The translations under genes were made by a program, and so were the position numbers. From IMG/VR virus record IMGVR_UViG_3300028025_003173, positions 1-33,020 of that record: DNA of 33,020 bases; one strand, 5' to 3'. The stretch is from a virus. Of this stretch, positions 4,787 to 29,555 are shown in pieces. Under the pieces are notes generated by a model. The model was not told the DNA's origin and ran no database searches. It was given only the letters and a program-made list of their open reading frames with translations. Each line of letters opens with the position of its first letter. The first letter of the stretch is position 1.

Positions 4787-5338
4787 TTAAAAAATTAAAT
4801 TTTCATTAGATTCATCACTAGATGTGTTTGGTTCATCTGAAGCTAGATATGCTCCGAGACCAGGCATTATTTTATCTAAATTATTAAGTTCTTTGTCAGA
4901 TAAGTTATATCTAAAATTAACTTTTAAGGTTTGATAAAGAGAATTAGATTTAAGTTCATCAAAATTATCTTTAGTTACTTCTTTAATAATAGGAGTATTA
5001 TTTAAATTTTTAACAAAGTATCTTACTATAACATTTTTTGATAAATCCTCAGGTGTAGGAATAAAGGGAATAGATTTTACTTTTGTACTATTTGGTTTTA
5101 ATTTTGATAAGCTAATATATGTTCTAATATTGGGGTTATTTAGTAAAGAATTAAATTTATTAGAAGTAACTTTTATTATTTCGGGGGCATCAGAATTAAA
5201 TTCCTTGCCAGCAAATGTTTTATCATTGAGTTCATAATAATAACCTTGATAAGGAAGTTGTGAGGATAATAATACATATTCTTTTCCTATAGTGTATTTA
5301 CCTGTTGTTATTGTATTTTTTGGTACTCTTATCCCCAT
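4787..5338 (-). CDS. Unknown 183-residue protein downstream of the baseplate hub
   Basis: I do not recognise this protein. The N-terminal half reads like small beta-rich modules (KYTIGKEYVLLSSQ, GYYYELNDKTFAG). The C-terminal quarter turns acidic and Ser/Asn-rich (DEPNTSSDESNENL), a likely disordered tail. There is no signal peptide or membrane helix. It starts about 11 nt after the hub gene stops and is followed by the replication promoter, so it is the last gene of the tail unit and could be a small virion or baseplate component. That is inferred from position only. Confidence 0.7.
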   Translation of the reverse strand: MGIRVPKNTITTGKYTIGKEYVLLSSQLPYQGYYYELNDKTFAGKEFNSDAPEIIKVTSNKFNSLLNNPNIRTYISLSKLKPNSTKVKSIPFIPTPEDLSKNVIVRYFVKNLNNTPIIKEVTKDNFDELKSNSLYQTLKVNFRYNLSDKELNNLDKIMPGLGAYLASDEPNTSSDESNENLIF

Positions 5339-5349
5339 AGTTTTATTAT

Positions 5350-8202
5350 TTAAACTGGTGCTCTAAATACATATGTTTCCCATGGGCCTTCTGCTCTATA
5401 TACTAGAGAGGTACCATAGTTTGCAGGAACACTTGATGTCCATCTTACGTTATTTCCTTTGTTTTGTATTCCTGCTGTAAATATTTGAGTATGGCCATAT
5501 CTTTTAGAGCTATCACTTCCTTGTGTTCCTTTATTACAATAATTAATTATATCCCCATACCCCCAATCATCACTATTTATTAATTTTTGTAAATCTGCCC
5601 TAGATAGAGTACCTAGGTATGTCATAGAATATCCTAATTGTTGTAATCTATTACGATAACCAACATCATTAGCGTTTCCACCAGCAGCTTCAGATAATCC
5701 TCTAGTTGGTTGTCCTTTAGCAGCAAGTACATAGTCTCTAGCTATATTATACGTGTATTGAGCACACCTACCTGACTTTCCATCACCCCCTCCATACACT
5801 GCATTAGTAGCCTGCAGCATAGCATTTCCGTTGCCTGCTTTAGCCTTAGTTAATACTGTTAGTACAGTCTCAGTTGCTCTCTCTACAGGATTATTTATTA
5901 CAGCCTCAATAACAACTTTAATATTGCTCATATCAACTAAGGAAATACCTCCTCTAGGTTCATCCAAAATTATAAATTGAGAATCAACATTAGTTACCCA
6001 ATCATTACCTTGAAGTGAATGTCCCAATCCATTAACAGTATATGCTACTTTAGCAGGTCCAGCACCACCGCCTCTGTATCCTCTAGGTAGTAATTCATTA
6101 GGGATTCTAAATAAATTTCCTATTACCATTCCTCCAATACCATCCATTTCAAGAGATAATTTAGTAGGAATAATTGCTCTGTTTGTATTATCGTTTTTTA
6201 TAAATGTCTTAAAAAAATTAATTAAATCTTTTAAAGCATTATTGTATTTACTAGCATTGCTAAGATCATAATTTCCACTACCTAAACCAAATTTATACCA
6301 AGCAGGGTCAATTTCATTAATAAAACTAACTATAACATTAATATTGTCTTTTAGATTTTTAACTTTTTCTTCAAGTTCTTTTGTAGAGTCTGTACTTGAA
6401 GGAGTATCAGGAGCGTCTTTTTTAGGAATAACCCTATCAAATAGATTTTGATTAAAATCAATTAAAGTATTAACATCTGCTCCTAATGCGCCTCCTTTAG
6501 CTTGAGCTCCAATAGCAACAATAGTTGTTTGATCTTGGAATATTTGGGATTCAAATTTGTAGTTTCGGATTACAGATTTAGTATTTTGTAATTCAAACAT
6601 AAAAGCATCATTATATGCTTTTTCTCTATTTTGATCATCTGCATAATTTACATCTATTATTCTAGCAGCTGAGTCAATTGGGTCTGAGAATATATCAAAT
6701 GTGGCTACATTTCCAGTTGCATTAGAGATACCAGACATTAGACTTTTAAGAAAATCAAATAACACAATGTCATTTTTTTCTTTTTTATCTTGAGTGGCTA
6801 AATTATTATTATTAACTAATGAATATATATAACCTAAATTAACATATATATTTCCTATAACTCCTAGTTGTTGTTTAGTATAATCATTATTATACCAGTA
6901 ACTAGTTTTTAACCCTTCCATTATACTTTTTAGTGTACTAAAATCATCAGAAAATCCTTCTGCAAATCCTAAACTTGAAGGATTAAGCCAAGCATCATTT
7001 TTAATTAAACAAGTAGAAGGATCTATAGATAATTGTAGTATATGTCCTAAACATAATAGGGGTTTATTTTCTCCACCCATATGATCACCTTCATTTACTG
7101 AAACTTTTATTACAGGAGTTTCACTTTTTATATCTTTTAATAAAACATGTTTATTTAATATATCAACAAAATCTTTTAATAGAATATATATTTGAGCTTC
7201 ATCATCAAAGTCACTATCTGTATTTGGGGAACCTTTTACATCTACATCAAATCTAAAAAATGTCCAACCATTAAATATTTTTTCTTCTTTATCTGCTATT
7301 CCTTCTCCTAATAAAGTAAGATATAATTCATTACATATTCCTGCAATTTTATTTTGTGAATATGATTTTTGCACATTTGAATCTTTTGCAAAAGGAGTAG
7401 GTAATTTTTTAAAAACACCATTTGTAGCTACATCTGTATCATAAGCTCCATAATTTACTTTTAAAGATTCAAGAATTTCACCTATAGAAATAATATCAGA
7501 AGTACAATCATACCCACCATCAGGGCGGGCAGACCAACTAAAGTTTTTTATAAATCCATAATGGGCATCATAATTACCATCTTTAGAAGCTTTTGTAAAT
7601 ATGTTTTTCCATATTTGTTCTTTAGATACTCCACCTTTTAAAACATCATCTGTAAAAGAAATATTGCTTTGTAATTTTCCATTATTATCAAGATAAGGAG
7701 CCCAACCCCACTCTACCAATACACTATAACCAGGGCGCATATAGAGAAGTTCTAATTCTTCTAGTTGTCTAATATCCCAACATTGAAAATTTACTACTAC
7801 TTCTCTTAAGGAGCCATATGCTGATTTTGATTTAACATTGATAGATGTAATACCAGGCATTGGTCGTATTCCTAGTCTATTTTTTTCTTGTTTTACAGTA
7901 CCATCAGGATTTACTGTAGTAGAATTTAAGCTATAAGCTTTATTATCAGTTCCTACTCCTGATCTTAATTTACCATTATATAGTATTCCTCCTAATAAAA
8001 CATAACTATTAGCTAAAGTAGATGATCCCGGTGTTAAACTACCATCATCTACTCCCACATTAACACTAGATGTCATTCTAATCCACGAGTTACGAGCATT
8101 AAAATACTGAATAGCATCAGGGGTACGTTCAAATATGGCTTTTTGTCTAGCCTTTAATTGATTTTTAACTCCTTCTTTAAACGTATCTTTAAATATAGAC
8201 AT
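5350..8202 (-). CDS. Baseplate hub protein with C-terminal CHAP/NlpC-like peptidoglycan hydrolase
   Basis: A 950-residue hub-type protein. Around residue 135-165 it has LREVVVNFQCWDIRQLEELE followed by MRPGYSVLVEWGW, a pattern I associate with gp27-like hub proteins of T4-like phages. Near 700-750, VNGLGHSLQGNDWVT looks like the second hub tube-like domain. The last 150 residues form a separate domain. C813 lies in GKSGRCAQYTYN, H904 and Q906 lie in RYGHTQIF, and WGYGDIINY stands between them. That Cys...His order is expected for a CHAP or NlpC/P60 amidase/endopeptidase. So the tip that enters the cell probably carries its own cell-wall enzyme, doing the job of the T4 gp5 lysozyme with a different fold. 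It is followed by a 183-residue gene and preceded, 5 nt away, by the LysM-like gene. Confidence 0.75.
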   Translation of the reverse strand: MSIFKDTFKEGVKNQLKARQKAIFERTPDAIQYFNARNSWIRMTSSVNVGVDDGSLTPGSSTLANSYVLLGGILYNGKLRSGVGTDNKAYSLNSTTVNPDGTVKQEKNRLGIRPMPGITSINVKSKSAYGSLREVVVNFQCWDIRQLEELELLYMRPGYSVLVEWGWAPYLDNNGKLQSNISFTDDVLKGGVSKEQIWKNIFTKASKDGNYDAHYGFIKNFSWSARPDGGYDCTSDIISIGEILESLKVNYGAYDTDVATNGVFKKLPTPFAKDSNVQKSYSQNKIAGICNELYLTLLGEGIADKEEKIFNGWTFFRFDVDVKGSPNTDSDFDDEAQIYILLKDFVDILNKHVLLKDIKSETPVIKVSVNEGDHMGGENKPLLCLGHILQLSIDPSTCLIKNDAWLNPSSLGFAEGFSDDFSTLKSIMEGLKTSYWYNNDYTKQQLGVIGNIYVNLGYIYSLVNNNNLATQDKKEKNDIVLFDFLKSLMSGISNATGNVATFDIFSDPIDSAARIIDVNYADDQNREKAYNDAFMFELQNTKSVIRNYKFESQIFQDQTTIVAIGAQAKGGALGADVNTLIDFNQNLFDRVIPKKDAPDTPSSTDSTKELEEKVKNLKDNINVIVSFINEIDPAWYKFGLGSGNYDLSNASKYNNALKDLINFFKTFIKNDNTNRAIIPTKLSLEMDGIGGMVIGNLFRIPNELLPRGYRGGGAGPAKVAYTVNGLGHSLQGNDWVTNVDSQFIILDEPRGGISLVDMSNIKVVIEAVINNPVERATETVLTVLTKAKAGNGNAMLQATNAVYGGGDGKSGRCAQYTYNIARDYVLAAKGQPTRGLSEAAGGNANDVGYRNRLQQLGYSMTYLGTLSRADLQKLINSDDWGYGDIINYCNKGTQGSDSSKRYGHTQIFTAGIQNKGNNVRWTSSVPANYGTSLVYRAEGPWETYVFRAPV

Positions 8203-14235: not shown

Positions 14236-14260
14236 AAGGCGCCTATTTTTTAGGCGCCTT
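14236..14260 (-). terminator. Hairpin terminator overlapping the stop of the 81-residue frame
   Basis: A perfect 10-bp inverted repeat, AAGGCGCCTA / TAGGCGCCTT, with a 5-nt loop that is AAAAA on the coding strand. The TAG stop of the upstream reading frame lies inside the first arm. The tract after the stem is only TTTAATA, so intrinsic termination may be partial, or the hairpin may protect the 3' end of the transcript. The late motif for the tape measure gene begins 2 nt further on. Confidence 0.65.
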
Positions 14261-14488
14261 AGTTGTATATGTCGGTTGCTTTGAAGCTATGTTAGGTCGT
14301 GATATACCCTGTTTACCTTTATTATTCATCATATTTTGCTGCTTCTCTGACTCTTCGCGTTCTTTATCATAGAATTCTTTAATTTTTTCAAATGTAAATC
14401 TACGAAGCCAAATAGGCATACTATATACTGTATCCCAATCATATCCACCCTTACCATGAAATATTATTTCATGTATTTGAGAAAACAA
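14243..14488 (-). CDS. Short frame before the tape measure, probably translated by +1 frameshift from the gp26-like gene
   Basis: The frame gives 81 residues if begun at the TTG at 14488, and there is no ATG or GTG before residue 30. It contains IHEIIFHGKGGYDWDTVYSMPIWLRRF and a charged helical end; I associate this block with gp51/tail-assembly-chaperone-like proteins. The frame is open upstream of the TTG across the end of the gp26-like gene (GLTREYRLY precedes it), and that extension looks like real coding sequence. Both frames meet at a 7-T run. The simplest reading is that the ribosome shifts +1 there and makes a fusion of about 336 residues, as in other tail-assembly chaperone pairs before a tape measure gene. 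Independent initiation at TTG is the alternative. Confidence 0.65.
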   Translation of the reverse strand: MFSQIHEIIFHGKGGYDWDTVYSMPIWLRRFTFEKIKEFYDKEREESEKQQNMMNNKGKQGISRPNIASKQPTYTTKAPKK

Positions 14489-14495
14489 ATATAAT

Positions 14496-15254
14496 CTATA
14501 TTCCCGCGTCAGGCCAAAAAAAGTTAAGAGAAATAGGTACGTTTATACCCTCCCCTGTATAATCTTCATCCTCGGGCTTGTATACTATATTAATATCTGG
14601 GGATACTTTATTATAATATTCACGTAGTGCTCTTGCATCTTTTGCAATAAGATAATTATCAACAAAATCACGAATTTCTTTTTGATCACGTTTGCCTTCA
14701 ACTGAAGTAATGGTGTATTTTAAACGGGTTGTAATATCGTAAGATAAATTTGGATTAATTTTTTTAAATCCTTTAATTTCAGCATCTATTTTTTGTTCAT
14801 CACCATGTGTTAGTAGTTTAAAAGTAATTTCATTATCTGAATGGGGTAAAGTAAATGAAAATTCGTTTGAGCTACGTTTAAATAGTTTTTCATCTATTAC
14901 TTTATCCTCTAATTTAGATAAATCAACTGTTGCTTCAACTTCTTGTCCGTTTGAATTAGTATACTTAAAAGAATAATCTTTACCATAACCTAATACACGA
15001 GCTGCAATTAGGATTGCATTTTTATCACCTACTAATAATTCATTGTAATCAATAGGAGTGATAATCAGCGCTTGAAGTAGTTTATCAATTACGGTTCCGT
15101 TTTTGATATAGTTACTGTTAGTAAGAATGTCTTCTTCCTTAGCGGTCATATACTTCATTTCAATTTCACCTTTAGCTAGTGGTGATGTCTCGGGATACAG
15201 TAAGCCTTTTGATGGTAATGTAACTGTTTCTGTTGGGATTTTTAATTCTGCCAT
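14496..15254 (-). CDS. gp26-like baseplate / tail assembly chaperone protein
   Basis: A 252-residue protein that fits the T4 gp26 (T4_baseplate) family. The N-terminus IPTETVTLPSKGLLYPETSP, followed by GEIEMKYMTAKEEDILTNSN, is characteristic. T4 gp26 is a baseplate hub assembly protein, and relatives just upstream of tape measure genes are usually thought to act as tail assembly chaperones. The C-terminus is SLNFFWPDAGI. A 7-T run encodes the FF before TGG at 14514-14522, with the shifted frame open downstream. A late motif lies 22 nt before the ATG and a strong terminator precedes that. The frame-0 product should be the main form and the shifted fusion a minor one. Confidence 0.8.
   Translation of the reverse strand: MAELKIPTETVTLPSKGLLYPETSPLAKGEIEMKYMTAKEEDILTNSNYIKNGTVIDKLLQALIITPIDYNELLVGDKNAILIAARVLGYGKDYSFKYTNSNGQEVEATVDLSKLEDKVIDEKLFKRSSNEFSFTLPHSDNEITFKLLTHGDEQKIDAEIKGFKKINPNLSYDITTRLKYTITSVEGKRDQKEIRDFVDNYLIAKDARALREYYNKVSPDINIVYKPEDEDYTGEGINVPISLNFFWPDAGI
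14513..14522 (-). other. Putative +1 programmed frameshift site (T7 run followed by TGG)
   Basis: The coding strand in frame 0 reads AAC TTT TTT TGG CCT. When the Phe-tRNA on the second TTT slips forward one base it still pairs with TTT, and the next codon becomes GGC. The new frame runs GLTREYRLYLFSQIHE into the 81-residue frame with no stop. A -1 slip would reach a stop after two codons, so +1 is the productive direction. The Trp codon after the run may be slow to decode. Confidence 0.55.
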
Positions 15255-15343: not shown

Positions 15344-15832
15344 TTAGAAGTTGAGTACACAATAATCCATAGCAACTGTTACAGATAAGCTAATTGCAGC
15401 ATCGCCTGAAGACCAATCATAGTCTCCAAACTTAGCGGTTTTGCAATAAGCACCTTTAATAATCCATTCACCTACTACATCACCTACTGGTCCTAAAATA
15501 TCTAATGTTAAATCTTTCTTGTAAAAATCTGAGTAGCCATCACGGCCTGTTACTGATTCGTGTGCTAAACGAGCCCATTCCATTACTGCTTGTGCACCAG
15601 ATGGAGTTACAGGATCGTATAGTTCTAAAGTCATATCATCCCATTTAACTTTACCTTTAACTTTGCGGTAAACGTTGATGTGGTCTAATATAATCTCACC
15701 AGCTTCAAATCCAGGAGCTGAGGCTTTTTTAATGAGGTATGATGGAATACCATCAATATACATGATAAAGCGATTTGGAACTTTGGGTTCAAATGCTGTG
15801 AACATTATTTCATTTGCGTCTAATACAGCCAT
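15344..15832 (-). CDS. 19: Tail tube protein (gp19-like)
   Basis: A 162-residue protein of the size of T4 gp19, with the family pattern. It begins near PNRFIMYIDGIPSYLIKKA, has a central KWDDMTLELYDPVTPSGAQA, and a later LTLDILGPVGDVVGEWIIKG followed by KFGDYDWSSGDAAISLSVTV. Subunits stack as hexamers to form the inner tube through which DNA passes. It lies directly after the sheath gene, the conserved order in contractile-tailed phages. It has its own late motif 24 nt upstream and a strong terminator downstream, so it can be transcribed as a single gene at high level. There is no Shine-Dalgarno, only an A-rich leader. Confidence 0.92.
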   Translation of the reverse strand: MAVLDANEIMFTAFEPKVPNRFIMYIDGIPSYLIKKASAPGFEAGEIILDHINVYRKVKGKVKWDDMTLELYDPVTPSGAQAVMEWARLAHESVTGRDGYSDFYKKDLTLDILGPVGDVVGEWIIKGAYCKTAKFGDYDWSSGDAAISLSVTVAMDYCVLNF

Positions 15833-15879: not shown

Positions 15880-18003
15880 CTATGCAGGGAATGTAGCGCC
15901 AGTTGGTAATACGTTGAAATTCAATATGATAAACTCAGCTGTTTTGGTTGGTTGGATATAAATCTGACCTACTAACTGATTTCTATCAATTACATCAGGA
16001 GTATTATTTGTTTCATCCATTACAACTTTATAAGCATATAAGCCTTGACGTTGTACTACTGATTCAAGATATGGATTAACTTGAGATAAGAAACGATTGC
16101 GAGTTACGTTGGTATTTTGTTCAAATACTAAGTTATTAGCAACTTGACCAATATATCCTTTAAGAGCAATCAACAAACGACGAACGTTTACACGGTCGAG
16201 AGCGGTTGCTTTACGCTGCAATGTTTTTTGACCAAATACTACAACACCTTCTCCAGGGAATGTAGCTAATGGGTTAACATTTGCTTGATATAATACATCA
16301 CGATCGTTTTGGGTTAATTTACGCTCAGCACGTAATACTGATGGAACACCACCACGATTTAAACCTGCAGGGGCAAACCATTCAGCACCAACTTGGTCGT
16401 TAAATGCGAATACACCACCCATTACTGTAGAGGCAGGAGCCCATACGGCTTTACCTAATGCGCTTGAAAATAATTGAATCCAAGGCCAATAAGTAGCAGC
16501 GTAGTTGCTTGATTGACCAGCAGCAGCATTTGCAGCAGCTGTTACTACATTACCATATAATTTAGTATCTACAACTGCAATAGCATCACCTCTACCTTCG
16601 CAAGTAGAAATCATGGTTGTTGAAGCAGCATTATCTAAAGTAACACCAGGTGCTAACAATACGTTGAATTGATATTCATCGCTATTTGCTAATAAATTAA
16701 ATGCAGCTTGGTAATCAGCAACACCAAATCCTTGAACGTTTGTTGCTGTGATATTTTCGTTCATTAATTGAACTGCATTTGTTGCAGCAACACCACCAGC
16801 AAATGAACCACCATAAGATCCACTTCCAACCAAAGGCATTGATGAAGCATAAGAACTTGTTTTAAAATTACCATTATTGTCAATAGAATCTACTTGAGGA
16901 GTAGTTATTGATTTAATACGAATGTATTGTGAAGCATTAGCATATGATCCAGTAATATCAATATAAGGAGCACCATCACTATCTACACGATAAATAGGTT
17001 TAATATCACCAATTACACGAGATATAAAGTTAGGTAATGCTGGGTCTAATGATAGGTTAGGCCATGTTTCGAGATAGTTAGGTTGTGCATTATTATCATT
17101 ACCAGCACGAACTGCTAAATTAAATGTACCACTTCCTGTGTTTACATTTGTAATTTCCCAACGAACGTTAATTGAACTACCACTTGCTAAAGCACCAGCA
17201 CTCATGCTAGAGGTATTATTCATTTGATCACCCCAAGCTATAGTTTCAAGAGTAAATGAAGTTGCTTGAGTAGATATATTAGTACCACCAGTTAAAGTAA
17301 CTAAAGTTGAAAAATCTGAAGCAGATCCTGTTTGGAAAAGAAATCCGTTTACTGCTGTACCGGCTACAGAACCAGATAATATAATTGTAGTTGCTGTGTT
17401 TGTTGCTTTGATTAAATTATAACTTGAAGAAGCAGCAGAACCTGATAAAGCACCATTAATAGATCCAGTTAAGTTATCTAAAGTAGCTTGTAAAGTAGAA
17501 CCAGATGCAAAATAATATAAATTACCATCAACATCATTTGCTGGGATTGGAGTAGCAGCAGAGATAAATCTAAATGTTGGATATCCGCTACCTACAATTC
17601 TAAATTCATTGTTGGCTGCTATTGAAGTTGCTAATACAGTACCACTGCCTGTAGCGAATTTATCACCAACAGCAGCTTGACTAATTACATCAGCATTAGC
17701 ATAAGTAGATACATTACCACTACCACTAATTACTTTAGTAACCAATAATGTTTGACCACCATTGTTAAAATAATCTTTAGCGGCTAATGATGTAAGATAT
17801 TCGTAGTAGTAACTACCACTTTTAAAAGTTTCACCAAACTTAGATACAAACTCGCTATACGAGGTAACATAAGTAGGAACAAGGGGTTGACCTAATACGG
17901 TAGGACCAACGATTGCGGTTGATGTCCCTTGAATACCCCTTTGAACTAACGATTGGTCAGATTCATTTTGGAATACGCCAGGACTTAAAATTTTTTCTGC
18001 CAT
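15880..18003 (-). CDS. 18: Contractile tail sheath protein (gp18-like)
   Basis: A 707-residue protein matching the T4-like sheath family. The N-terminus MAEKILSPGVFQNESDQSLV is followed by GIQGTSTAIVGPTVLGQPL. The conserved C-terminal half contains WFAPAGLNRGGVPSVLRAE, then NVNPLATFPGEGVVVFGQKT, and NVRRLLIALKGYIGQ, ending in IYIQPTKTAEFIILNF. Residues about 100-400 form a variable Ser/Thr/Gly-rich insertion, the part that usually faces outward on the contracted tail. It precedes the tube gene. A late motif lies 44 nt upstream, and the leader between them contains a small stem-loop. The assignment is firm. Confidence 0.95.
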   Translation of the reverse strand: MAEKILSPGVFQNESDQSLVQRGIQGTSTAIVGPTVLGQPLVPTYVTSYSEFVSKFGETFKSGSYYYEYLTSLAAKDYFNNGGQTLLVTKVISGSGNVSTYANADVISQAAVGDKFATGSGTVLATSIAANNEFRIVGSGYPTFRFISAATPIPANDVDGNLYYFASGSTLQATLDNLTGSINGALSGSAASSSYNLIKATNTATTIILSGSVAGTAVNGFLFQTGSASDFSTLVTLTGGTNISTQATSFTLETIAWGDQMNNTSSMSAGALASGSSINVRWEITNVNTGSGTFNLAVRAGNDNNAQPNYLETWPNLSLDPALPNFISRVIGDIKPIYRVDSDGAPYIDITGSYANASQYIRIKSITTPQVDSIDNNGNFKTSSYASSMPLVGSGSYGGSFAGGVAATNAVQLMNENITATNVQGFGVADYQAAFNLLANSDEYQFNVLLAPGVTLDNAASTTMISTCEGRGDAIAVVDTKLYGNVVTAAANAAAGQSSNYAATYWPWIQLFSSALGKAVWAPASTVMGGVFAFNDQVGAEWFAPAGLNRGGVPSVLRAERKLTQNDRDVLYQANVNPLATFPGEGVVVFGQKTLQRKATALDRVNVRRLLIALKGYIGQVANNLVFEQNTNVTRNRFLSQVNPYLESVVQRQGLYAYKVVMDETNNTPDVIDRNQLVGQIYIQPTKTAEFIILNFNVLPTGATFPA

Positions 18004-20948: not shown

Positions 20949-23900
20949 TTATTTATTTTTTAAAATATCTATTTCAGCTTTTAATTCTTTAATTGCTCCT
21001 ACAAGAAGAGGTATAATTCCTCTTTCTCTTAAAGATAATGTACCATCATTGTTTTCCCTAACAAGTTCAGGTAATACTTCTTGTACTTGTTGAGCTATAA
21101 ACCCTAAATCATCTTTAATATTTGCCAATTTATTTGATTCAGTTCCTTCTTTCCAAGTAAATAATACTGGTTTTAACTTTTGTATTTTGTCAAGTGATCC
21201 TTGAATAGGTACTATGTTAGTTTTAAAAGATACATCTGAAGGTGTACCATAGGCAACTATATCTCCAGCAGCTGTAATTGTACCCGTTGAGCTAAAGGAT
21301 ACTCTTGTAGTAGTACCAGCTCTAAAGTATAAATCTCCAGAAGCAAAATCAATATAGCCATATATTCCGCTTTGATGTAATCGTAATCTATCTCCTGAAT
21401 CAGCATTATTCCCTAACCACACACTACGGCCACTTCCAGATAAAAATATATTGCCATTAACTGTTAGTTTATCAGTAGGAGATGTAGTACCTATACCAAC
21501 ACTACCACTTACTAATACATTATTTTGAAAATATCTATTTCCAGGATTATTTACTTTTATTAATCTCCAACCTGATATATAACATCTTCTTGTACCACTA
21601 TCATTATAATAATTAAATAATGCTTGGGGGCCAAAATATTTTGTATTGTTTACCCAGTTATTAGTATTACCAGTGCCACTATTGCCTGAAGAACTGCCAT
21701 ATCCATTCCAATATCCAAATACTTTTGTCCAGGTAGTTCCTGGATCGTAACCAAGCATTACATTATAGGTGTAAGATCCTGGGTTTCCCCCTAGGTTTCC
21801 AAAAGATGCATCGTAGTCTATACCTCCCATATAATGTCTATTTGCAGAACCGGCTTCATTTCTAATCCAGCATTCCATATAATACCAATCATTAGATCCT
21901 GTATCTACTGGGATAAAAGGAAAGCCTGAAGAATAAACAACATTTCCTACATTTAAAGCTCCATCAACTTGTATAGAGTATCCGCCGGGTGCGGTAGAAT
22001 CTGTATTCCAAGTAAACCCAGTACTACCAAAATAATCTTGTAATTGAGCTTGTGTCCAAGTTGGATCTATTTCAAATACTGTTTCTCCTGAGCTATAATG
22101 TCCTATAGGATACTTTTTTGTTGCGTCTACTCTTGTATTTCTTGAATTAATTCCCCCTTCTACATCTAATTTAGCATTAGGTTCTGTAAGACCTATACCA
22201 ACATTACCTGATGACCTTATTATCATGTAATTTGTAGTGGCAAGTCTACTTCTAAAGGTATGAGTTGTATTATCATAGTAATTGCCAGGGTCGGTAGCAT
22301 TACCAAGATACATTGCTATATTTCCTGCAGGTTCGTATATCCTATGATAAAGACTATCTCTATCTGCAAAAGGAGAATCTATAGAAGCAGATTCAAATCC
22401 TAATATTCCGTTAACAGTTAGTTTATAGGAAGGGGATATAGTACCAATACCTAAGTTATCACCAGTACCAAATAATGTTGGACCCCCACTACCTAATTTA
22501 ATAGCACCTACAGCTGAATTTTGTACGCCATAGACACCCAGTGTATTAGCTACATTTATGTCATATAATGCGGAATCATCACCGCCTTGAAAAGTTAAAG
22601 CGTTATTTACTGTAGTTTTAATTGGAAGTGATGTTTGGACAGTAGTACCATCATCAGTAATTGAGCTATTACCAATAGTAGTATTAGAAGCAAACTTAAC
22701 AACTGTATTTGTAGTACCAGATACTGATACTGAAGTACCGGAGGTGCCGCTTGTGCCTGTAGTTCCACTTGTACCTGAGGTGCCTGTAGTTCCACTTGTT
22801 CCTGTAGTACCTGATGTACCTGTTGTGCCTGATGTACCGGAAGTTCCTGTAGTACCTGAAGTACCCCGTGTGCCTGATGTACCGGAAGTACCTGTGGTAC
22901 CTGATGTACCTGTTGTGCCGCTTGTGCCTGAAGTACCTGTTGTGCCTGAAGTACCTGTTGTGCCTGATGTACCTGTAGTACCTGATGTACCTGTTGTGCC
23001 TGATGTACCTGTTGTGCCTGATGTACCTGAAGTGCCTGTAGTACCTGAAGTGCCTGTAGTACCTGAGGTACCACGTGTACCTGATGTACCGGAAGTACCA
23101 CCAGTTCCATTAGTTCCACTAGTACCTGATGTACCGGAAGTACCTGTAGTACCGCTAGTTCCTGTTGTGCCTGAGGTGCCGCTTGTGCCTGTAGTTCCAC
23201 TTGTGCCTGTAGTACCTGAAGTACCGGCTGTGCCACTTGTACCTGTTGTACCTGAAGTGCCTGTTGTACCACTTGTGCCGGTTGTACCGCTGGTTCCAGT
23301 TGTACCTGAGGTGCCACTTGTGCCAGAAGTAGCAGCGGTAAATGAAGATCCGTTTATTGTGAGAGAACCTGTTATGTTAACTGATCCTGTAAATTGATGA
23401 GTATTAGATGATAAACTGCCGAATTTTGTTGATCCAGTTATAAAGCTTACACTTGATGTTATTGTTTGTACTACTAATGTTTGAGCAGTTATCTGGTTGG
23501 AAACTATTAGAGAACCAGTAATGTTAGTGCTTCCGGATACATTAAAATTACCCCCAACAAATGTCAAACCAGCAGATGCTGTTGCGGCATTAGTTGTACC
23601 GTCGGATAGTAATACTCTACCAACAGCAGCGTTATTAATCGTATTAAAGCCAGTTCCGCTTGTACCTGCAGTGCCTGATGTGCCTGATGTGCCGCTGGTG
23701 CCTGTAGTTCCTGATGTACCTGTTGTACCGCTAGTACCAGTAGTACCTGATGTACCGCTTGTGCCTGTTGTACCTGAAGTTCCGGTTGTACCACTTGTAC
23801 CTGATGTTCCAGTAGTACCTGAAGTTCCGGTTGTACCACTTGTACCTGTGGTTCCTGAGGTACCATTAGTACCATTTATACCAGAAGTACCAGAGGTTCC

Positions 23901-25229
23901 GGTTGTACCGCTTGTTCCTGATGTACCTGTTGTGCCTGATGTGCCTGTTGTGCCTGATGTGCCTGTAGTACCCGAAGTTCCACTTGTACCAGATGTACCG
24001 CTTGTGCCTGTAGTTCCTGAAGTACCGGTTGTGCCACTTGTGCCTGAAGTTCCACTTGTGCCTGTAGTACCAGAAGTACCACTTGTTCCAGTTGTACCTG
24101 ATGTACCTGTTGTACCAGATGTACCAGTTGTGCCACTTGTGCCTGAAGTTCCGGTAGTACCTGATGTACCTGTTGTGCCGCTTGTACCTGATGTACCATT
24201 AGTACCTGCAGCTCCAGATGTACTATAATATAATTGTCCTGTTGTTGGATCAACTACAACAAATCTAGATAGATTGTTTAATGTTAAATCTCTAACAGTT
24301 AAAGATCCTGTTATGCTTACTGAACCAGTAATAGTCATATTACTAGCAAACCTACTAGAGCCAGAAACATCTAGTTTAGCTATTGGTGATGTAGTACCTA
24401 TACCAACATTACCATTAGAAAGTATACGCATTCTTTCAGTACTATTAGTCTGAAAAGCTAAATCTGGGTTTGAACCTATTGCCCCAACAATACCCATTGT
24501 TACAAGTCCATTTACAGACTTGATTTGGAATATATCTTGATATGTCTGAGTACCTAAAGAAAGTAAGTATGGGGTACTAGCGTCTGAGTATCCTTTAAAT
24601 CTAAATCCAGATGTAGCACCACTTGCCAATGAGGCATCAAGTATAGATGTTGGCGTACTAGTTCCTATGCCAACATTACCATCATATAATATAGTCATTC
24701 TGGTATAAGAACCTATATCAGAAGCAGTTACGTTTAATCCTTGTTCGGTTGCTGGTCTTGCTATAAATTGTAAAGCACTTGTTCCTGATCCTAAAACTCT
24801 AATTCCAGCTACTGTTCCCCATAAAGAAGAAGCATTTGTTGATGAATATATATAATTAGATCCACTATAATATAAACTTCTACCAAAAAATCCATCCCAT
24901 CCAAGACTAGCATTTTGTGTACCCCACATAGAAACACCAGCTTGAGCGGAGCCATTACCTCCTGCAGATATAATTTTATCTGGTGTTACATTAATATTTC
25001 CATCCATCGCCAGACTACCAGTAATACTAACACTACCGGTAAACTGGTGTGTATTGCTAAGTAATGTACCAGATCTAGTAGACCCTGTTACAAAACTAGT
25101 TGATGATGTTATAGTTTGAGCTATAATTGTTTGACCTAAAAATATACTTGCTGTTACTGCATTTGTAACAAACAGAGAACTAAGAGAGGCGTCAGAACCT
25201 GACGTGATAAGTTTTTTCCAATTCGGCAT
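20949..25229 (-). CDS. Large tail fibre with collagen-like repeats and C-terminal S74 chaperone
   Basis: A 1426-residue fibre. The N-terminus MPNWKKLITSGSDASLSSLF is related to that of the 564-residue fibre and may attach to the virion. Beta modules with NVGIGTSTP-type repeats follow. Two long Gly-Thr-Ser repeat blocks (about 335-525 and 632-832) are separated by a module with GFNTINNAAVGRVLLSDG. Near 1090-1240 is a Trp/Tyr-rich region (DWYYMECWIRNEAG ... RRCYISGWRLIKV) that looks like a carbohydrate-binding jelly roll. The end, from about S1331 (SDVSFKTNIVP) through DDLGFIAQQVQEVLPELV and a C-terminal helix, is a peptidase S74 intramolecular chaperone. It trimerises the fibre and then cleaves itself off before the Ser of the SD motif. 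The leader has a late motif 79 nt upstream. Confidence 0.88.
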   Translation of the reverse strand: MPNWKKLITSGSDASLSSLFVTNAVTASIFLGQTIIAQTITSSTSFVTGSTRSGTLLSNTHQFTGSVSITGSLAMDGNINVTPDKIISAGGNGSAQAGVSMWGTQNASLGWDGFFGRSLYYSGSNYIYSSTNASSLWGTVAGIRVLGSGTSALQFIARPATEQGLNVTASDIGSYTRMTILYDGNVGIGTSTPTSILDASLASGATSGFRFKGYSDASTPYLLSLGTQTYQDIFQIKSVNGLVTMGIVGAIGSNPDLAFQTNSTERMRILSNGNVGIGTTSPIAKLDVSGSSRFASNMTITGSVSITGSLTVRDLTLNNLSRFVVVDPTTGQLYYSTSGAAGTNGTSGTSGTTGTSGTTGTSGTSGTTGTSGTTGTSGTTGTSGTSGTTGTSGTSGTSGTTGTSGTTGTSGTSGTSGTSGTTGTSGTTGTSGTTGTSGTSGTTGTSGTSGINGTNGTSGTTGTSGTTGTSGTTGTSGTSGTTGTSGTTGTSGTSGTTGTSGTTGTSGTTGTSGTSGTSGTAGTSGTGFNTINNAAVGRVLLSDGTTNAATASAGLTFVGGNFNVSGSTNITGSLIVSNQITAQTLVVQTITSSVSFITGSTKFGSLSSNTHQFTGSVNITGSLTINGSSFTAATSGTSGTSGTTGTSGTTGTSGTTGTSGTTGTSGTAGTSGTTGTSGTTGTSGTSGTTGTSGTTGTSGTSGTSGTNGTGGTSGTSGTRGTSGTTGTSGTTGTSGTSGTTGTSGTTGTSGTTGTSGTTGTSGTTGTSGTSGTTGTSGTTGTSGTSGTRGTSGTTGTSGTSGTTGTSGTTGTSGTTGTSGTSGTTGTSGTSGTSVSVSGTTNTVVKFASNTTIGNSSITDDGTTVQTSLPIKTTVNNALTFQGGDDSALYDINVANTLGVYGVQNSAVGAIKLGSGGPTLFGTGDNLGIGTISPSYKLTVNGILGFESASIDSPFADRDSLYHRIYEPAGNIAMYLGNATDPGNYYDNTTHTFRSRLATTNYMIIRSSGNVGIGLTEPNAKLDVEGGINSRNTRVDATKKYPIGHYSSGETVFEIDPTWTQAQLQDYFGSTGFTWNTDSTAPGGYSIQVDGALNVGNVVYSSGFPFIPVDTGSNDWYYMECWIRNEAGSANRHYMGGIDYDASFGNLGGNPGSYTYNVMLGYDPGTTWTKVFGYWNGYGSSSGNSGTGNTNNWVNNTKYFGPQALFNYYNDSGTRRCYISGWRLIKVNNPGNRYFQNNVLVSGSVGIGTTSPTDKLTVNGNIFLSGSGRSVWLGNNADSGDRLRLHQSGIYGYIDFASGDLYFRAGTTTRVSFSSTGTITAAGDIVAYGTPSDVSFKTNIVPIQGSLDKIQKLKPVLFTWKEGTESNKLANIKDDLGFIAQQVQEVLPELVRENNDGTLSLRERGIIPLLVGAIKELKAEIDILKNK
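22735..23335 (-). repeat. Collagen-like Gly-Thr-Ser coding repeat, block 2
   Basis: About 600 bp of degenerate 9- and 18-bp units that encode GTSGTTGTSGTS strings, with a few substitutions (GTR, GTN, GTA, GTG). Every third residue is Gly, as in collagen, but the other positions are Thr/Ser rather than Pro. Codon choice varies, so the repeat is maintained at protein level. It produces long artefact ORFs on the plus strand. Confidence 0.95.
23655..24225 (-). repeat. Collagen-like Gly-Thr-Ser coding repeat, block 1
   Basis: About 570 bp encoding Gly-X-X triplets (GTSGTTGTS) in the same fibre gene, interrupted once by GINGTNGTSG. The flanking modules before it (GQLYYSTSG) and after it (GFNTINNAAVGR) have counterparts around the shorter repeat in the 285-residue fibre. 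Confidence 0.95.
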
Positions 25230-25256
25230 TATATGTTTACATTTTGTGGTTAGATA

Positions 25257-25273
25257 CTTAACACCGCGTTAAG
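25257..25273 (-). other. Leader hairpin before the large fibre gene
   Basis: CTTAAC / GTTAAG, a 6-bp stem with a 5-nt loop, in the 79-nt stretch between the late motif and the fibre ATG. A second weak element, CCC-AAAA-GGG, lies between it and the motif. It is the longest leader among the late units, so it could carry translational control or mRNA stabilisation. Confidence 0.35.
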
Positions 25274-25308
25274 CCTACTTCCCTTTTGGGGCCTACAAAC
25301 TTGTGATA

Positions 25309-25316
25309 ATAAATAT
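25309..25316 (-). promoter_or_regulatory. Late-promoter-like motif ATATTTAT (before the large fibre gene)
   Basis: Coding strand TTAATATTTATTATCAC, overlapping the last base of the preceding stop codon and 79 nt upstream of the ATG at 25229. It has the longest spacing of the nine copies. Confidence 0.55.
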
Positions 25317-25552
25317 TAACTAGACTTTTTAACCGCTTTTTCTTCTTCTAGAGCTAGAATTTGTTGCAAACTTTCTATTTTTTTTTGCTCTTCTGCTGCT
25401 TTCATCTGTTCAATCTGCATTAATTCATTTTCTAATTTAATTTGCAAATTAGCTAAGAACTTAGCATCTTTCCCAGATATAGTAACTAGATCTAGTGATT
25501 GTCTCATGAATGCTATCTCGTTATGAGTAACATCAATTGAAAATATATCCAT
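25316..25552 (-). CDS. Small helical protein, paralogue of the next gene upstream
   Basis: A 78-residue protein. Residues 8-50 (HNEIAFMRQSLDLVTISGKD, then LANLQIKLENELMQ) can be aligned with the C-terminal half of the 68-residue neighbour (QELEYILNLLKNTDLKG, then LAIKLQNQ). The rest is a charged helix (EEQKKIESLQQILALEEEK). It is tightly linked to the neighbour (5-nt gap) and lies between two fibre genes. It might be a fibre-assembly chaperone or a small virion protein. I recognise no named family. Confidence 0.65.
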   Translation of the reverse strand: MDIFSIDVTHNEIAFMRQSLDLVTISGKDAKFLANLQIKLENELMQIEQMKAAEEQKKIESLQQILALEEEKAVKKSS

Positions 25553-25557
25553 AACAT

Positions 25558-25764
25558 TTATTTAGTTGTCTTTTTTAGGTATTGGTTTTGTAATTTAATT
25601 GCTAAACCATAAAATAATTCAATTTGAAATCCTTTTAAATCAGTATTCTTAAGTAGATTAAGAATATATTCTAATTCTTGAGGATTTAACTCATTAGAAT
25701 TAACAGATGCTTGAACAGAGTTTGATTCTCCTGCTATAATTAATTGGTTCGATGTAAATGCCAT
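25558..25764 (-). CDS. Small helical protein between two fibre genes
   Basis: A 68-residue protein. The first 25 residues look like strands (NQLIIAGESNSVQASVNSNE) and the rest is two helices (NPQELEYILNLLKNTD, LFYGLAIKLQNQYLKK). The helical half resembles the neighbouring 78-residue protein, suggesting an old tandem duplication. It starts about 22 nt after the 564-residue fibre gene ends, without its own late motif, so it is probably co-transcribed with that fibre. A fibre chaperone or connector role is inferred from position alone. Confidence 0.65.
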   Translation of the reverse strand: MAFTSNQLIIAGESNSVQASVNSNELNPQELEYILNLLKNTDLKGFQIELFYGLAIKLQNQYLKKTTK

Positions 25765-25786
25765 AACTCTATTTTTATATTATATA

Positions 25787-27481
25787 TTATCCGTAAATGA
25801 AAATATCACCCGCGTTAGTAATCCACATATTACCTGATCCATTAGATCCAGTACCCCATGTTGGAGGTACAGTATTTGATGGATTTGATGCTTGGTTGAT
25901 TTTTGCTGTTACTACATATTCACTAGGAGTTAATGAAGTTGAAGTACCTACCACATCAAATGCTACAGCAAAACGACCATAAGGTCCATGATCATTAGTA
26001 GCGCCTGCTTCAAGATAAAATGCAGAACCAGAACCAGCAGCATTATATTGAGTTATCCATCCTGAATCAGCAAGTACTGAGGAACCACTATTAATTAGGA
26101 TAAATTTATCTCTAACGTTTAGATTATCTGTATTAGTAAATGATGCAGTACCTGCTACTGATAAATCACCAGTTACAGTTAAGCTATTTTGGAATGTCGA
26201 AGCACCTGTTACATTAATACCACCAGCAGCTATTGTTACACCACTTGATGCGCCGGCTCCAATTTGTACTTGGGTACCAGTATCTACAATATTACTATTG
26301 ACAAATCCTGTACCTGACCATTTAGTACTATTATTAGTTGTTAAAGTAGCTGAACCTGATATTGCTACATTTACAGCTGCAGAGCCATTATAAGTTGAAA
26401 CACTACCTGATAAACCAGTTCCAAATGTTAAGGCATTAGCTACTTGAGTTGCTGAAGCAGCAGTTGTAGCAAATGATGCAGTTGTAGCAAATGATGCACT
26501 AGTAGCAAATGAAGCAGTTGTGGTAAATGAAGCACTTGTTGCGAACGAAGCACTAGTAGCGAATGAAGCACTTGTTGCAAACGAAGCAGTTGTTGCAAAT
26601 GATGAACTTAGTGATTGACTAGCAAAAGAAGCAGTAACAGTTAATACATTTGTAGTTGCATTAAAAGTTAATGTTGTACTATCTACTCTTGCAGCTTGGT
26701 TACCTGTAGAACCTGTTGTAAATACTAGGTAATAAGGACCAACACCTGTAGTTGTATCAGTAACAGTTATTGTAGAAGCTGAAGCGGCATTAGTTGTATT
26801 AGTAGCAAAAGCAGATGATATAGCAGATGATGCACTTACAGCCCAAGAAGAAGTAGCACTTAAAGTATTTGTACTTACATTATATTGGAAACTAGAACTG
26901 TTTACATATAATGATTGAGTACCAGAACCAGAAATAGCAAAAGTAGGATAATAAATACCACTAGAGGTATTATTCATCGTTACAGTAGCAGCAGATGATG
27001 CTATTCCTTGTGCTACCGTTATATCAAATGTAGAGCTATCACCTTTTGTAAAGGTAATTGTAGATGCATTTACACTAGCTGTAATTAAACCTCTAAGAGG
27101 AAGAGAAGAAGTTAATGCAAAAGATGCACTAGTAGCAAATGATGCAGTTGTAGCAAATGAAGCACTTGTTGCAAATGAAGCACTAGTAGCAAATGAAGCA
27201 CTTGTGGCGAACGAAGCACTAGTTGCAAAAGATGCAGTTGTTGCAAAGGAAGCAGTACCTGTCAGAGATCCAGCAAACGAACCACTAAATGAACCAGAAT
27301 GTACTAAACCAGTTGCATTTGTTGTTGCTACTATATTTCCAGTTCCATTAATTGCTGTAGTAGATAAGTTAGCTGCTGACCCCCCACCAATTACTACTTG
27401 TCCTGATGTTAGGTTATCTACTTTTAATTGAGCTAATTCAGCGTTACTGCCTGAAACTATGACTTTTTTCCAAGTTGCCAT
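25787..27481 (-). CDS. Tail fibre/virion protein with SASFATS heptad repeats
   Basis: A 564-residue protein whose N-terminus MATWKKVIVSGSNAELAQLK is related to that of the 1426-residue fibre. It contains two arrays of a 7-residue repeat, S-A-S-F-A-T-(S/T), at about 73-124 and 290-344, with Phe every seventh residue. Such regularity suggests a fibrous trimeric shaft. Between and after them are beta modules (SITVTDTTTGVGPYY; SLTVTGDLSVAGTASF). The C-terminal domain includes YGRFAVAFDVVGTSTSL and ends in GNMWITNAGDIFIYG. It has no S74 domain. Ser and Thr content is very high, making it a candidate acceptor for the nearby glycosyltransferases. A late motif lies 26 nt upstream. Confidence 0.82.
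   Translation of the reverse strand: MATWKKVIVSGSNAELAQLKVDNLTSGQVVIGGGSAANLSTTAINGTGNIVATTNATGLVHSGSFSGSFAGSLTGTASFATTASFATSASFATSASFATSASFATSASFATTASFATSASFALTSSLPLRGLITASVNASTITFTKGDSSTFDITVAQGIASSAATVTMNNTSSGIYYPTFAISGSGTQSLYVNSSSFQYNVSTNTLSATSSWAVSASSAISSAFATNTTNAASASTITVTDTTTGVGPYYLVFTTGSTGNQAARVDSTTLTFNATTNVLTVTASFASQSLSSSFATTASFATSASFATSASFATSASFTTTASFATSASFATTASFATTAASATQVANALTFGTGLSGSVSTYNGSAAVNVAISGSATLTTNNSTKWSGTGFVNSNIVDTGTQVQIGAGASSGVTIAAGGINVTGASTFQNSLTVTGDLSVAGTASFTNTDNLNVRDKFILINSGSSVLADSGWITQYNAAGSGSAFYLEAGATNDHGPYGRFAVAFDVVGTSTSLTPSEYVVTAKINQASNPSNTVPPTWGTGSNGSGNMWITNAGDIFIYG
26449..26610 (-). repeat. Coding repeat of SASFATS heptads, distal array
   Basis: About seven to eight 21-bp units with strong nucleotide similarity, encoding (S/T)ASFAT(S/T). 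They match the array at 27110-27262 in the same gene and could recombine with it. Confidence 0.85.
27110..27262 (-). repeat. Coding repeat of SASFATS heptads, proximal array
   Basis: About seven 21-bp units encoding (S/T)ASFAT(S/T), ending with SASFALTS. Third-base variation shows selection on the protein repeat. A degenerate form (SASYATTASYA) occurs in the 285-residue fibre. Confidence 0.85.
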
Positions 27482-27507
27482 TTAATATTTTTTGGTGTTA
27501 TCTATTA

Positions 27508-27515
27508 ATAAATAT
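27508..27515 (-). promoter_or_regulatory. Late-promoter-like motif ATATTTAT (before the 564-residue fibre)
   Basis: Coding strand TCAATATTTATTAATAG, 26 nt before the ATG at 27481 and 3 nt after the stop codon of the 285-residue fibre. Confidence 0.6.
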
Positions 27516-27518
27516 TGA

Positions 27519-28376
27519 TTATTCTAGCCCTACATAAAAAGATGAAGAAGTAAACCATATACTTCCTGCATTAGTTGTTCCTATTGGGTTAAGAGATTGT
27601 GTTTGAATTTGTACTATACTTTGACTTACAATTAAAACTGGTTGTTGTGTTGTAAAGTTTCTTATTATAAATAAATTACTATATAAATCAGTATCACCAC
27701 TACTTGATATATTAAAATATTGTGTGCTGCCTGATTTGATTAAGAATAAATTAGTAGGATTTGTATTTACACTAGCAGTAACACTACCTGTTGCTATTTG
27801 AAATAAGGTTAAATTTAAATTAGCAGGATCAATATAGGAAGCAGTAGCTGCTAATGCAGCAAATAAAGCATATGATGCTGTTGTAGCATAAGAAGCAGAT
27901 ACTGCATGACTAGCAGTTCCAAATAAAGATCCGGTAAATGAGGATGCAGATACATGTCCTATAACAGTTAATGATCCTGTAATTATAGTACTACCTGATA
28001 TTGTAAGTTCATTATTATTGTATACTAAAGCAGAGGATGCAGTAGCTGCATTTACAGTACCATCAGATAGTAGTATTCTACCTGTTCCTGCGTTATTAAT
28101 CGTGTTAAAACCAGCTCCAGATACACCGGATGTTCCGGAAGTGCCTGTTGTACCTGAAGTGCCATTAGTACCATTTGCTCCATTAATACCTGAGGTGCCT
28201 GAGGTGCCATTAGTACCAGTAGTTCCTCCACCACCCCCAGAGGTGCTATAATAAAACTTACCATTGTTATCAGCTACTACTGTTCTTATTAGAGAACTGC
28301 TTTCAATGAGTTTTACTTGTAAAGTATCAAACCTAGCATTACCGTCTTGCCTAGGTATGTTAATAGACTGCCCCAT
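27519..28376 (-). CDS. Short tail fibre-like protein with a collagen-like segment
   Basis: A 285-residue fibre-like protein. Residues 1-55 (INIPRQDGNARFDTLQVKLI ... GKFYYSTSG) are followed by a Gly-X-X stretch with GTNGTSGTSGINGANG, then GFNTINNAGTGRILLSDG. The same module order surrounds the first repeat block of the 1426-residue fibre, so the two share an exchanged or duplicated cassette. SASYATTASYA heptad-like repeats lie near 160-185, and the C-terminal beta domain ends SIWFTSSSFYVGLE. It has no S74 domain or hydrolase motif. It is the first structural gene after the glycan cassette, with a late motif 20 nt upstream. Confidence 0.8.
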   Translation of the reverse strand: MGQSINIPRQDGNARFDTLQVKLIESSSLIRTVVADNNGKFYYSTSGGGGGTTGTNGTSGTSGINGANGTNGTSGTTGTSGTSGVSGAGFNTINNAGTGRILLSDGTVNAATASSALVYNNNELTISGSTIITGSLTVIGHVSASSFTGSLFGTASHAVSASYATTASYALFAALAATASYIDPANLNLTLFQIATGSVTASVNTNPTNLFLIKSGSTQYFNISSSGDTDLYSNLFIIRNFTTQQPVLIVSQSIVQIQTQSLNPIGTTNAGSIWFTSSSFYVGLE

Positions 28377-28406: not shown

Positions 28407-29555
28407 CTATAACGGGGGTAGTATATATTTTAGTTTTTCTATTACAGATTCTGGTGTTATTGTTTTAGAGCATTCAAATTGTCTGGCTGTTCCTTTATGG
28501 ATGGGACACCAATTCCAATCACCAGCATCTAACTTGTGAGAATTGAAGCAACCTTTGCATTTACCCTCAGGAGATCCTAGACGATAACAGCTAGAGGGTT
28601 CAGTATATGTTTCGGAAAAGCCAGAAATTAATACAGTTGGAGTATCAGTAGCCCAACTTAACCAACTTAATCCACTACTTATACCAATAAATGCTTCGGA
28701 TTCGTGTAGTGTTTGAATAGTTGTTTCTATATTGTATGATGAAAGATATTTAATTCCTGTTGGATGATTATTACCCATATATGTGTCTCCTTCTCTAGAT
28801 AATAATATTACCTCATAATCTTGTTCAGCACACCAATCAACTACTTGTTGCCATCCTGTAGGATTATTCCAATACTTTGCTTGTGCTGTAGCATGAATTG
28901 CAATTGCAATTTGTTTTTTCTTTAATACTGTTGGTTTTTTTAATTTTGGTTTAAGTTCTATAAAATCTAATCCTAAAATGTCAGAAGCTGTTTTCTGTAG
29001 TTCTTGAGATTTTATTTCATTAGGATGTCTAAATTCATTTAATTCATCATTCTCTTTATAATACCACCCTATCGTATACATTGCGTATATATTATGAGCT
29101 GCTTCTCCAGGATTGATAAATTCAATTTCTGGGTACTGGTTTTGAAATAGATGGTTATGAAAGGTAGAGCATATGATTTGGCATTTATGTTTTTTTCTAA
29201 AAGCTTCTATATAAGGAAACCAAGCTAAAGTATCGCCTAAGGCTTTTGAATCTAAAGCAATATATACTTTTTTATTAAGAGCATTAAAATAATCTTCCTC
29301 TATTAATCTAAAATTGTCATTTTCTTTTTGGTAAATTTTTATATACCAATCTATAAAATATTCATATAAACATTTAGTCCAATGATCATTTTGAATGATA
29401 GAGGAATGAATTAATTGGTTTGTTTTTCTATTATAAAATTCAACTAAGTATTCTGCTTTAATAGGAGAACGAATTTCTACTTTAGGACCTTGTACATAAT
29501 TAATACTTAAAGTAGAAATAATATTATTTGTATTTTTAATCAAATTAGAGTACAT
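28407..29555 (-). CDS. Autotransporter-type O-heptosyltransferase homologue (TibC/Aah-like)
   Basis: A 382-residue protein with the layout of bacterial autotransporter heptosyltransferases. An N-terminal beta domain (YVQGPKVEIRSP ... FIDWYIKIY, about 18-75) is followed by a GT-B catalytic region. That region begins VYIALDSKALGDTLAWFPYI (98-116), with D108 in the family GDT motif, and includes KYWNNPTGWQQVVDW (228-241) and IGISSGLSWLSWATDTPTV (290-308). A four-Cys element near the end, KCKGC (C333, C336), C350 and C362, matches the iron finger described for TibC. Known members move heptose from ADP-heptose onto Ser of short beta-strand-loop repeats in adhesins. Here the gene ends 30 nt before the Ser/Thr-rich fibre genes. 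The acceptor and the sugar are inference. It overlaps the upstream glycosyltransferase by 16 nt. Confidence 0.82.
   Translation of the reverse strand: MYSNLIKNTNNIISTLSINYVQGPKVEIRSPIKAEYLVEFYNRKTNQLIHSSIIQNDHWTKCLYEYFIDWYIKIYQKENDNFRLIEEDYFNALNKKVYIALDSKALGDTLAWFPYIEAFRKKHKCQIICSTFHNHLFQNQYPEIEFINPGEAAHNIYAMYTIGWYYKENDELNEFRHPNEIKSQELQKTASDILGLDFIELKPKLKKPTVLKKKQIAIAIHATAQAKYWNNPTGWQQVVDWCAEQDYEVILLSREGDTYMGNNHPTGIKYLSSYNIETTIQTLHESEAFIGISSGLSWLSWATDTPTVLISGFSETYTEPSSCYRLGSPEGKCKGCFNSHKLDAGDWNWCPIHKGTARQFECSKTITPESVIEKLKYILPPL

Follow-up and report, generated by a model that had tools for sequence, protein, structure and literature searches.

A T4 gp26-like tail gene of a T4-like phage and the reading frame behind it are probably joined by +1 frameshifting

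Introduction

Frameshifting in tail assembly chaperone genes of the lambda gpG/gpGT type was reportedly described by Xu et al. in 2004. A +1 frame can be reached by either a +1 or a −2 shift. Among myoviruses, phage Mu (−2) and Halorubrum virus HSTV-2 (probably +1) reach this frame in their chaperone gene, and Atkins et al. describe T4 as an exception to the conserved G-T frameshifting (PMC5009743). The roles of the T4 proteins gp26 and gp51, listed as chaperones of hub assembly, have been unclear; gp51 is needed for assembly yet absent from the particle (PMC3004832). A two-gene tail chaperonin was proposed earlier for Bacillus phage 0305phi8-36 (PMC2147016). The +1 site of prfB, the gene of RF2, generally contains CTTT, although poly-T versions also occur (PMC12421855).

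Here, we analyzed a stretch of 33,020 nt (IMG/VR record IMGVR_UViG_3300028025_003173, positions 1 to 33,020; hereafter called the window), a 33-kb piece of a T4-like myovirus genome. A preliminary description of this DNA had proposed that a +1 programmed frameshift joins its gp26-like gene to a following ORF lacking an ATG. Comparison with relatives indicates that the two very probably form one recoded tail-assembly-chaperone gene. Our search of the openly accessible literature found no earlier report of frameshifting in the gp26 family.

Results

Organization of the locus

Nearly all genes of the window lie on the minus strand, in the order sheath, tube, gp26-like gene, small ORF, tape measure candidate and then more tail genes (Table 1). 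The gp26-like protein matched PF12322 (T4_baseplate) with 29.5 bits, above the Pfam cut-off of 24.5, and phrog_150 with an E value of 1.3e-13, the best family name being 'baseplate hub'. The 'baseplate hub subunit' of Flavobacterium phage immuto is 57.7% identical to it. The tape measure candidate was identified by its 25% identity over 807 columns (E 7e-35) to the annotated 'tail tape measure protein' of immuto. As in G/GT-type chaperone loci, two overlapping ORFs are located between the tube and tape measure genes.

Table 1. Positions of the features discussed in the text (numbering of the window).
Feature	Position	Strand	Remarks
Gp26-like gene, 252 aa	14496..15254	minus	predicted short product (G-like part); 0-frame stop TAG 14498-14496
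Slip site AAC TTT TTT TGG CCT	14511..14525	minus	site also given as TTTTTTTGG
+1-frame C-terminal domain, 90 aa, GLTREYR...KAPKK	14243..14515	minus	coding 14515-14246, stop 14245-14243
TTG codon	14486..14488	minus	sole ATG/GTG/TTG ahead of +1 codon +32; not conserved
GGGGAGGG with Shine-Dalgarno core GGAGG (14553-14549)	14548..14555	minus	26 nt before first slip codon
Probable tape measure protein, 975 aa	11281..14208	minus	directly downstream of +1 extension
Tail tube protein (gp19-like)	15344..15832	minus	phrog_4542 tail tube, E 8.2e-21; directly upstream of gp26-like gene
Tail sheath protein	15880..18003	minus	PF04984 and PF17482; phrog_23, E 4.4e-73

In the 0 frame, the gp26-like gene ends with AAC TTT TTT TGG CCT GAC GCG GGA ATA TAG, so that its product has the C-terminus LNFFWPDAGI*. 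When one T is dropped, reading continues as TTT TTT GGC CTG ACG CGG GAA and stays open until the stop at 14245-14243. Re-reading of the minus strand confirmed AAC TTT TTT TGG as the place where the preliminary description had let the two frames meet, and the frames give both lengths named there, a 336-residue predicted fusion (246 + 90 aa) beside the 252-residue product. That the frame before the tape measure gene has no ATG near its start, only a TTG, was likewise borne out: between the upstream stop (codon −10) and codon +8 the +1 frame contains no ATG, GTG or TTG, and the TTG at 14488 is the first. All larger minus-strand genes of the window that were checked start with ATG.

Elsewhere in the window, the region 20949-28376 (minus strand) encodes tail-fibre-like proteins with long GTSGTSGTT repeats and SFATSASFATSA repeats, and the large plus-strand ORFs facing these genes are by-products of the repeats. 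At the window end (28407-32701, minus strand), the encoded proteins resemble, by eye, glycosyltransferases and a methyltransferase.

Conservation of the slip site and of the +1 frame

Using the gp26-like protein as query, we recovered 368 relatives from viral contigs and kept the best 80. In these 80 and in immuto, the extension always lies in the +1 frame right after TTT[T/C]TTTGGCCTGA and opens with the motif GL(T/I/M)..(Y/H)R, with no conserved start codon. After added scans with the Mel-JY01 and LR756508 homologues, the +1 group comprised 181 loci. The window group has 81 loci (61 unique sequences). Many loci are nearly identical to one another, which makes the raw counts look more independent than they are.

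An alignment of homologues had been suggested in the preliminary description as a check of slip-site conservation. In our set the signature, YTT-T(GG/AC) followed by CCT, was kept in 179 of the 181 loci. CCT occupies this place in 180 of 181 loci compared to about 29% of the proline codons elsewhere in these genes, and TTC accounts for 21% of the Phe codons elsewhere in the gene of the +1-group loci. The window and 147 of the 181 loci have a T7 tract; variants of the site are TTCTTTTGG (14 loci), TTTCTTTGG (12), CTTTTTTGG (3) and TTTTTTTAC (3).

Selection on the +1 frame was measured over codons 7-30. For most loci of the window group this stretch is beyond the gp26 stop, and it ends ahead of the first conserved ATG (codon 32). 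In the window group (61 unique sequences), dN/dS was 0.139/0.823 = 0.17, with heterozygosity of 0.18/0.07/0.36 at the three codon positions, and the other two groups gave 0.24 (64) and 0.06 (10). No such pattern was seen in either of the other two frames. At the sequence level, then, the slip site is conserved and the +1 frame is under selection. With GLTxEYR conserved right after the slip site, these values also uphold the earlier reading of the extension GLTREYRLY as real protein.

Could the downstream ORF be a separate gene with an internal start (TTG 14488 or another) and no frameshift? An ATG in the +1 frame upstream of the slip site is found in 48 of 176 loci, mostly of the Mel-JY01 group, public records annotate pieces of the extension as separate genes, and two relatives (L285 and L291, see below) read the domain from an ATG of their own. 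However, the window group shares no conserved start codon: ATG, GTG and TTG are all absent between the upstream +1 stop and codon 25 in 61 of its 81 loci (and in 83 of 176 loci overall). A conserved ATG in place of the TTG, behind a random upstream frame, was the pattern that the preliminary description had named as speaking against a frameshift; the codon at this position (+9) is a start codon in only 4 of the 81 loci, each time TTG. Moreover, protein conservation opens at GLT, immediately past the slip site, and the slip-site nucleotides are fixed, the signature being lost only where an ATG was gained. We therefore regard an internal start as very unlikely. What is found is a conserved slippery site followed by a conserved protein frame without its own start, as in G/GT-type genes. 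In 28 loci, just 3 codons of the +1 frame are open before GGC, so that the slip must fall within AAC TTT YTT TGG.

Isolates with a +1 extension at the same place are immuto, Mel-JY01, SP-15, LIS04, GXN1 and RM378. The site reads TTT CTT TGG in immuto, where the shifted frame would run on into GLTPEYR. The last four isolates are more distant; their site is TTT TTT TGG in RM378, and TTT TTT CAC, TTT TTT AGT and TTC TTT CGT are found among SP-15, LIS04 and GXN1. When SP-15 gp26 was used as query in viral contigs, SP-15 itself was the sole match. In immuto (L001), an annotated 36-aa hypothetical protein (5339-5449) corresponds to the tail end of the 80-aa +1 extension (5207-5446).

Loss of the signature in two relatives

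Among the 181 loci, loss of the signature is confined to the two that gained a start codon, L285 and L291, where the site reads TTC TTG TAT CCT and TTC CTT TGG CCA, respectively. In both, the domain starts from its own ATG just past the gp26 stop and has a new N-terminus (about 2160-2230 in L285, about 2157-2230 in L291), indicating that the domain can exist unfused. The two form a pair in the tree (100/100), beside immuto (99/98). The expectation that relatives might carry one fused ORF held in part: the only whole in-frame fusions seen were gp51 of T4 and of its close relatives, and L285 and L291 have a split gene instead.

Proposed direction and mechanism of the shift

A −2 ribosomal frameshift on the T-run, as in phage Mu, would reach the same frame and add one Phe, and TTTTTTT does permit P-site re-pairing two bases back (PMC5009743). 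Two variants that keep the frame break this re-pairing: a −2 slip of the second codon would face TCT in TTC TTT TGG (14 loci, L276-L290), and a −2 slip would face TTC in TTT CTT TGG (12 loci). A codon able to re-pair two bases back, the mark of a Mu-type shift, is thus not found in all members, and a −2 shift is very unlikely. Re-pairing by +1 is allowed in both variants (TTT on TTT, or CTT on TTT in the manner of prfB). Since both keep the +1 relation, they support a model in which the P-site tRNA slips by +1 on YTT-T while TGG or TAC occupies the A site, in agreement with the direction assigned previously.

The T7 tract of the window and of the 147 loci would also lend itself to transcriptional slippage or to a homopolymer indel from sequencing or assembly. 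Yet the 29 loci without T7 (TTCTTTTGG, TTTCTTTGG, CTTTTTTGG) share the same frame relation, so polymerase slippage and homopolymer error do not explain it; independent assemblies and isolate genomes concur, and there is selection on both frames. Either artefact or slippage is hardly credible.

We strongly infer +1 slipping by ribosomes at YTT-T. The majority of ribosomes would stay in the 0 frame and produce the 252-aa short protein. In a minority, peptidyl-tRNA-Phe would occupy TTT in the P site (14519-14517) while TGG (Trp) is still unread in the A site; tRNA-Phe would re-pair one base forward (TTT T), and GGC (14515-14513) would be the next codon read. These ribosomes would produce the long protein of 336 aa, whose C-terminal 90 aa would form a helical domain.

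The textbook +1 stimulators, a stop codon in the A site and a Shine-Dalgarno (SD) sequence 3 nt upstream, are absent at the slip site. RNAalifold on 16 loci revealed no covarying downstream stimulatory structure (15 pairs, none with a two-sided change). A hairpin between the upstream GGAGG and the slip site was also considered. Compared with synonymous shuffles, its energy was lower in the Mel-JY01 group (mean z −1.1) and in the L276 group (z −2.5, from only 7 unique, related sequences); we do not claim this hairpin because the window group gave a z of 0.03 and the register differs between loci.

A GGAGG element upstream of the slip site

GGAGG is located at exactly 26 nt from the slip site in 80 of the 81 window-group loci and at 25 nt in the remaining one; in the L276 group the distance is 23 nt (14/14). 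The predicted anti-SD pairing at this place is −11.0 kcal/mol compared to −5.9 kcal/mol for synonymous shuffles. The element uses rare codons (GGG is 3% of the Gly and GAG 9% of the Glu codons elsewhere in the gene) and is kept despite residue changes (GEG, EEG, REG, EGG). Gene starts in the window are mostly without SD sequences. Known SD spacings are 3 nt in prfB and about 10 nt for −1 sites, and 26 nt is too far for either. L291, which has lost the shift, still has the element, and we therefore treat its tie to frameshifting as a candidate only.

GGAGG was also considered as initiator of an internal ORF and rejected: no conserved start follows it, and the +1 frame closes right behind it in most window-group loci.

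The nearest cultured relative of the window phage infects Flavobacterium, whose ribosomes have an occluded anti-SD, and yet a prfB frameshift site is present there (PMC8710568). If the tie is real, GGAGG 26 nt upstream may represent a new long-range stimulator suited to such ribosomes.

Protein models and putative function

The model of the short protein had a pLDDT of 89.7, and AlphaFold2 predicted a three-helix core for the +1 extension (pLDDT 76). For the short protein, the HK97 chaperone 2ob9_B was the highest-probability PDB match listed (0.30, TMt 0.49); with an E value of 2.2, this match is only suggestive. The extension alone gave no match in Foldseek. It matched phrog_32580, a 'tail assembly chaperone' family, weakly in 23 of 45 members (best E 0.011).

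The extension (14246-14515, minus strand) and its relatives also show weak similarity to DUF6760 (best E 0.0028) and to Phage_TAC_13, which may point to a connection with contractile injection systems.

Position and the relationship to T4 gp26/gp51 point to a chaperone function, and a G/GT-type tail-assembly chaperone pair, encoded between tail tube and tape measure, is our best reading of the locus. By analogy to lambda gpG/gpGT, the tape measure protein would be coated by many copies of the short form and few of the long one, whose extra C-terminal domain would recruit the tail tube subunit. Alternatively, the fusion may be real but serve baseplate-hub assembly proper, in the style of T4 gp26/gp51, which the hub chaperone listing of these two proteins, the requirement for gp51 despite its absence from the particle (PMC3004832) and the family name 'baseplate hub' would favor. 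We consider this unlikely, as both the gene order (tube, gp26-like gene, extension, tape measure) and the conservation of a short and a long form fit tail-assembly chaperones. The roles are not fully distinct, since gp29, the tape measure of T4, also carries a hub-subunit annotation. Position, the short/long pair and homology to T4 gp51 via the −1 group described below all speak for the tail-assembly-chaperone reading already put forward in the preliminary description.

Relatives with a −1 extension, and T4 gp26 and gp51

Other relatives encode the corresponding extension in the −1 frame at the end of gp26: T4-like cyanophages, phiM12, RL2RES, PhiW-14, phi-Grn1 and the jumbo phages Atu_ph07, CBB, Cassandra and XacN1. 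The −1 users thus span cyanophages, rhizobiophages, schizoT4 phages and several jumbo phages. Their sites follow T TTT TTN (T TTT TTC, TTG, TTA or TTT). We scored 79 cyanophage-type contigs: a long −1 extension is present in 78, the extension of the remaining one is cut off by the contig edge, and all 79 carry an SD-like GAGG, GGAGG or AAGG 8-10 nt upstream of the site, which is the textbook SD spacing for −1 stimulation. Part of the −1 extension is annotated in some records as gp51, 'baseplate hub assembly catalyst'.

An unannotated −1 frameshift at the gp26 end was seen in L093 to L098 and L100 to L103. In the Ackermannviridae phage Mooltan (L099, 1900-2060), an open −1 frame encodes a similar extension after gp26, at a weaker slip motif (GAA ATT TTC ATT TAA).

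Profile comparison with hhalign related the +1 extension to the −1 extension (P 4e-9) and the −1 extension to the C-terminus of T4-family gp51 (P 1e-8); in both cases 0 of 100 column shuffles came near. For the whole proteins, the +1 fusion matched the −1 fusion (P 6e-23), and the −1 fusion matched full T4 gp51 (P 6e-21, columns 6-259 of 259). Reversed-sequence controls of the profile comparisons were not significant. The direct comparison of the +1 extension with the T4 gp51 C-terminus was not significant either (7 of 100 shuffles scored equally high), and the link to gp51 therefore runs through the −1 group.

T4 gp26 ends where the short form ends (EFFELL*), with no slip site at its end (GAG TTC TTT GAG TTA CTA TAA), and gp26 and gp51 are encoded separately, in opposite orientation. 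A tree was built from the shared part, though its long branches make exact placements unsure. In it, T4 gp26 and gp51 form a cluster (98/93) nested in a supported group (100/99) of otherwise −1 users, and a second −1 group of four jumbo phages falls among +1 lineages. T4 gp26 thus appears to be the short form, with frameshifting replaced in T4 by gene duplication. A wider scenario is offered only tentatively: the gp26-family chaperone of the T4 superfamily might have frameshifted ancestrally, switched between −1 and +1 more than once and been duplicated into gp26 and gp51 in T4, with GGAGG as a possible stimulator. If so, the duplication into gp26 (short) and gp51 (long) would explain the T4 exception among long-tailed phages.

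Discussion

The distribution of sites suggests that the T4 superfamily is not an exception, the gp26 family frameshifting in most sampled lineages, in either direction and on the same T-run. T4 gp26 and gp51 would then be the short and the long tail chaperone, a role that can be put to the test. Annotation can be corrected in many phage genomes where the extension was missed, truncated or called a separate gene, and the +1 set represents a natural series for +1 slipping without a stop codon.

Like lambda gpG/gpGT, the locus has overlapping ORFs for a short and a frameshifted long product between the major tail or tube gene and the tape measure gene (PMC5009743), and neither product would be expected in the virion. 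Unlike lambda, which shifts −1, the window phage would shift +1, and its short protein is a 252-aa relative of T4 gp26 (PF12322) rather than a small G-type protein; we found no sequence homology between the gp26-like protein and lambda gpG. Phage Mu shifts −2, which the slip-site variants exclude here.

The site resembles the RF2 (prfB) site CTT-TGA-C in its predicted P-site slip on YTT-T, which 179 of the 181 loci would allow, and in having both CTTT and poly-T variants. It differs from prfB in its A-site codon, TGG or TAC instead of a stop, in having no SD 3 nt upstream, and in that there is no release-factor autoregulation here.

The closest relationship is to T4 gp26/gp51. PF12322 holds both proteins as well as the gp26-like part, and the −1 fusions match gp51 end to end, whereas T4 itself has two separate genes and no slip site at the gp26 end. 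Bacillus phage 0305phi8-36, of a different lineage from the window phage, likewise has a paralogous pair without a frameshift (PMC2147016), as we infer for T4 gp26 and gp51.
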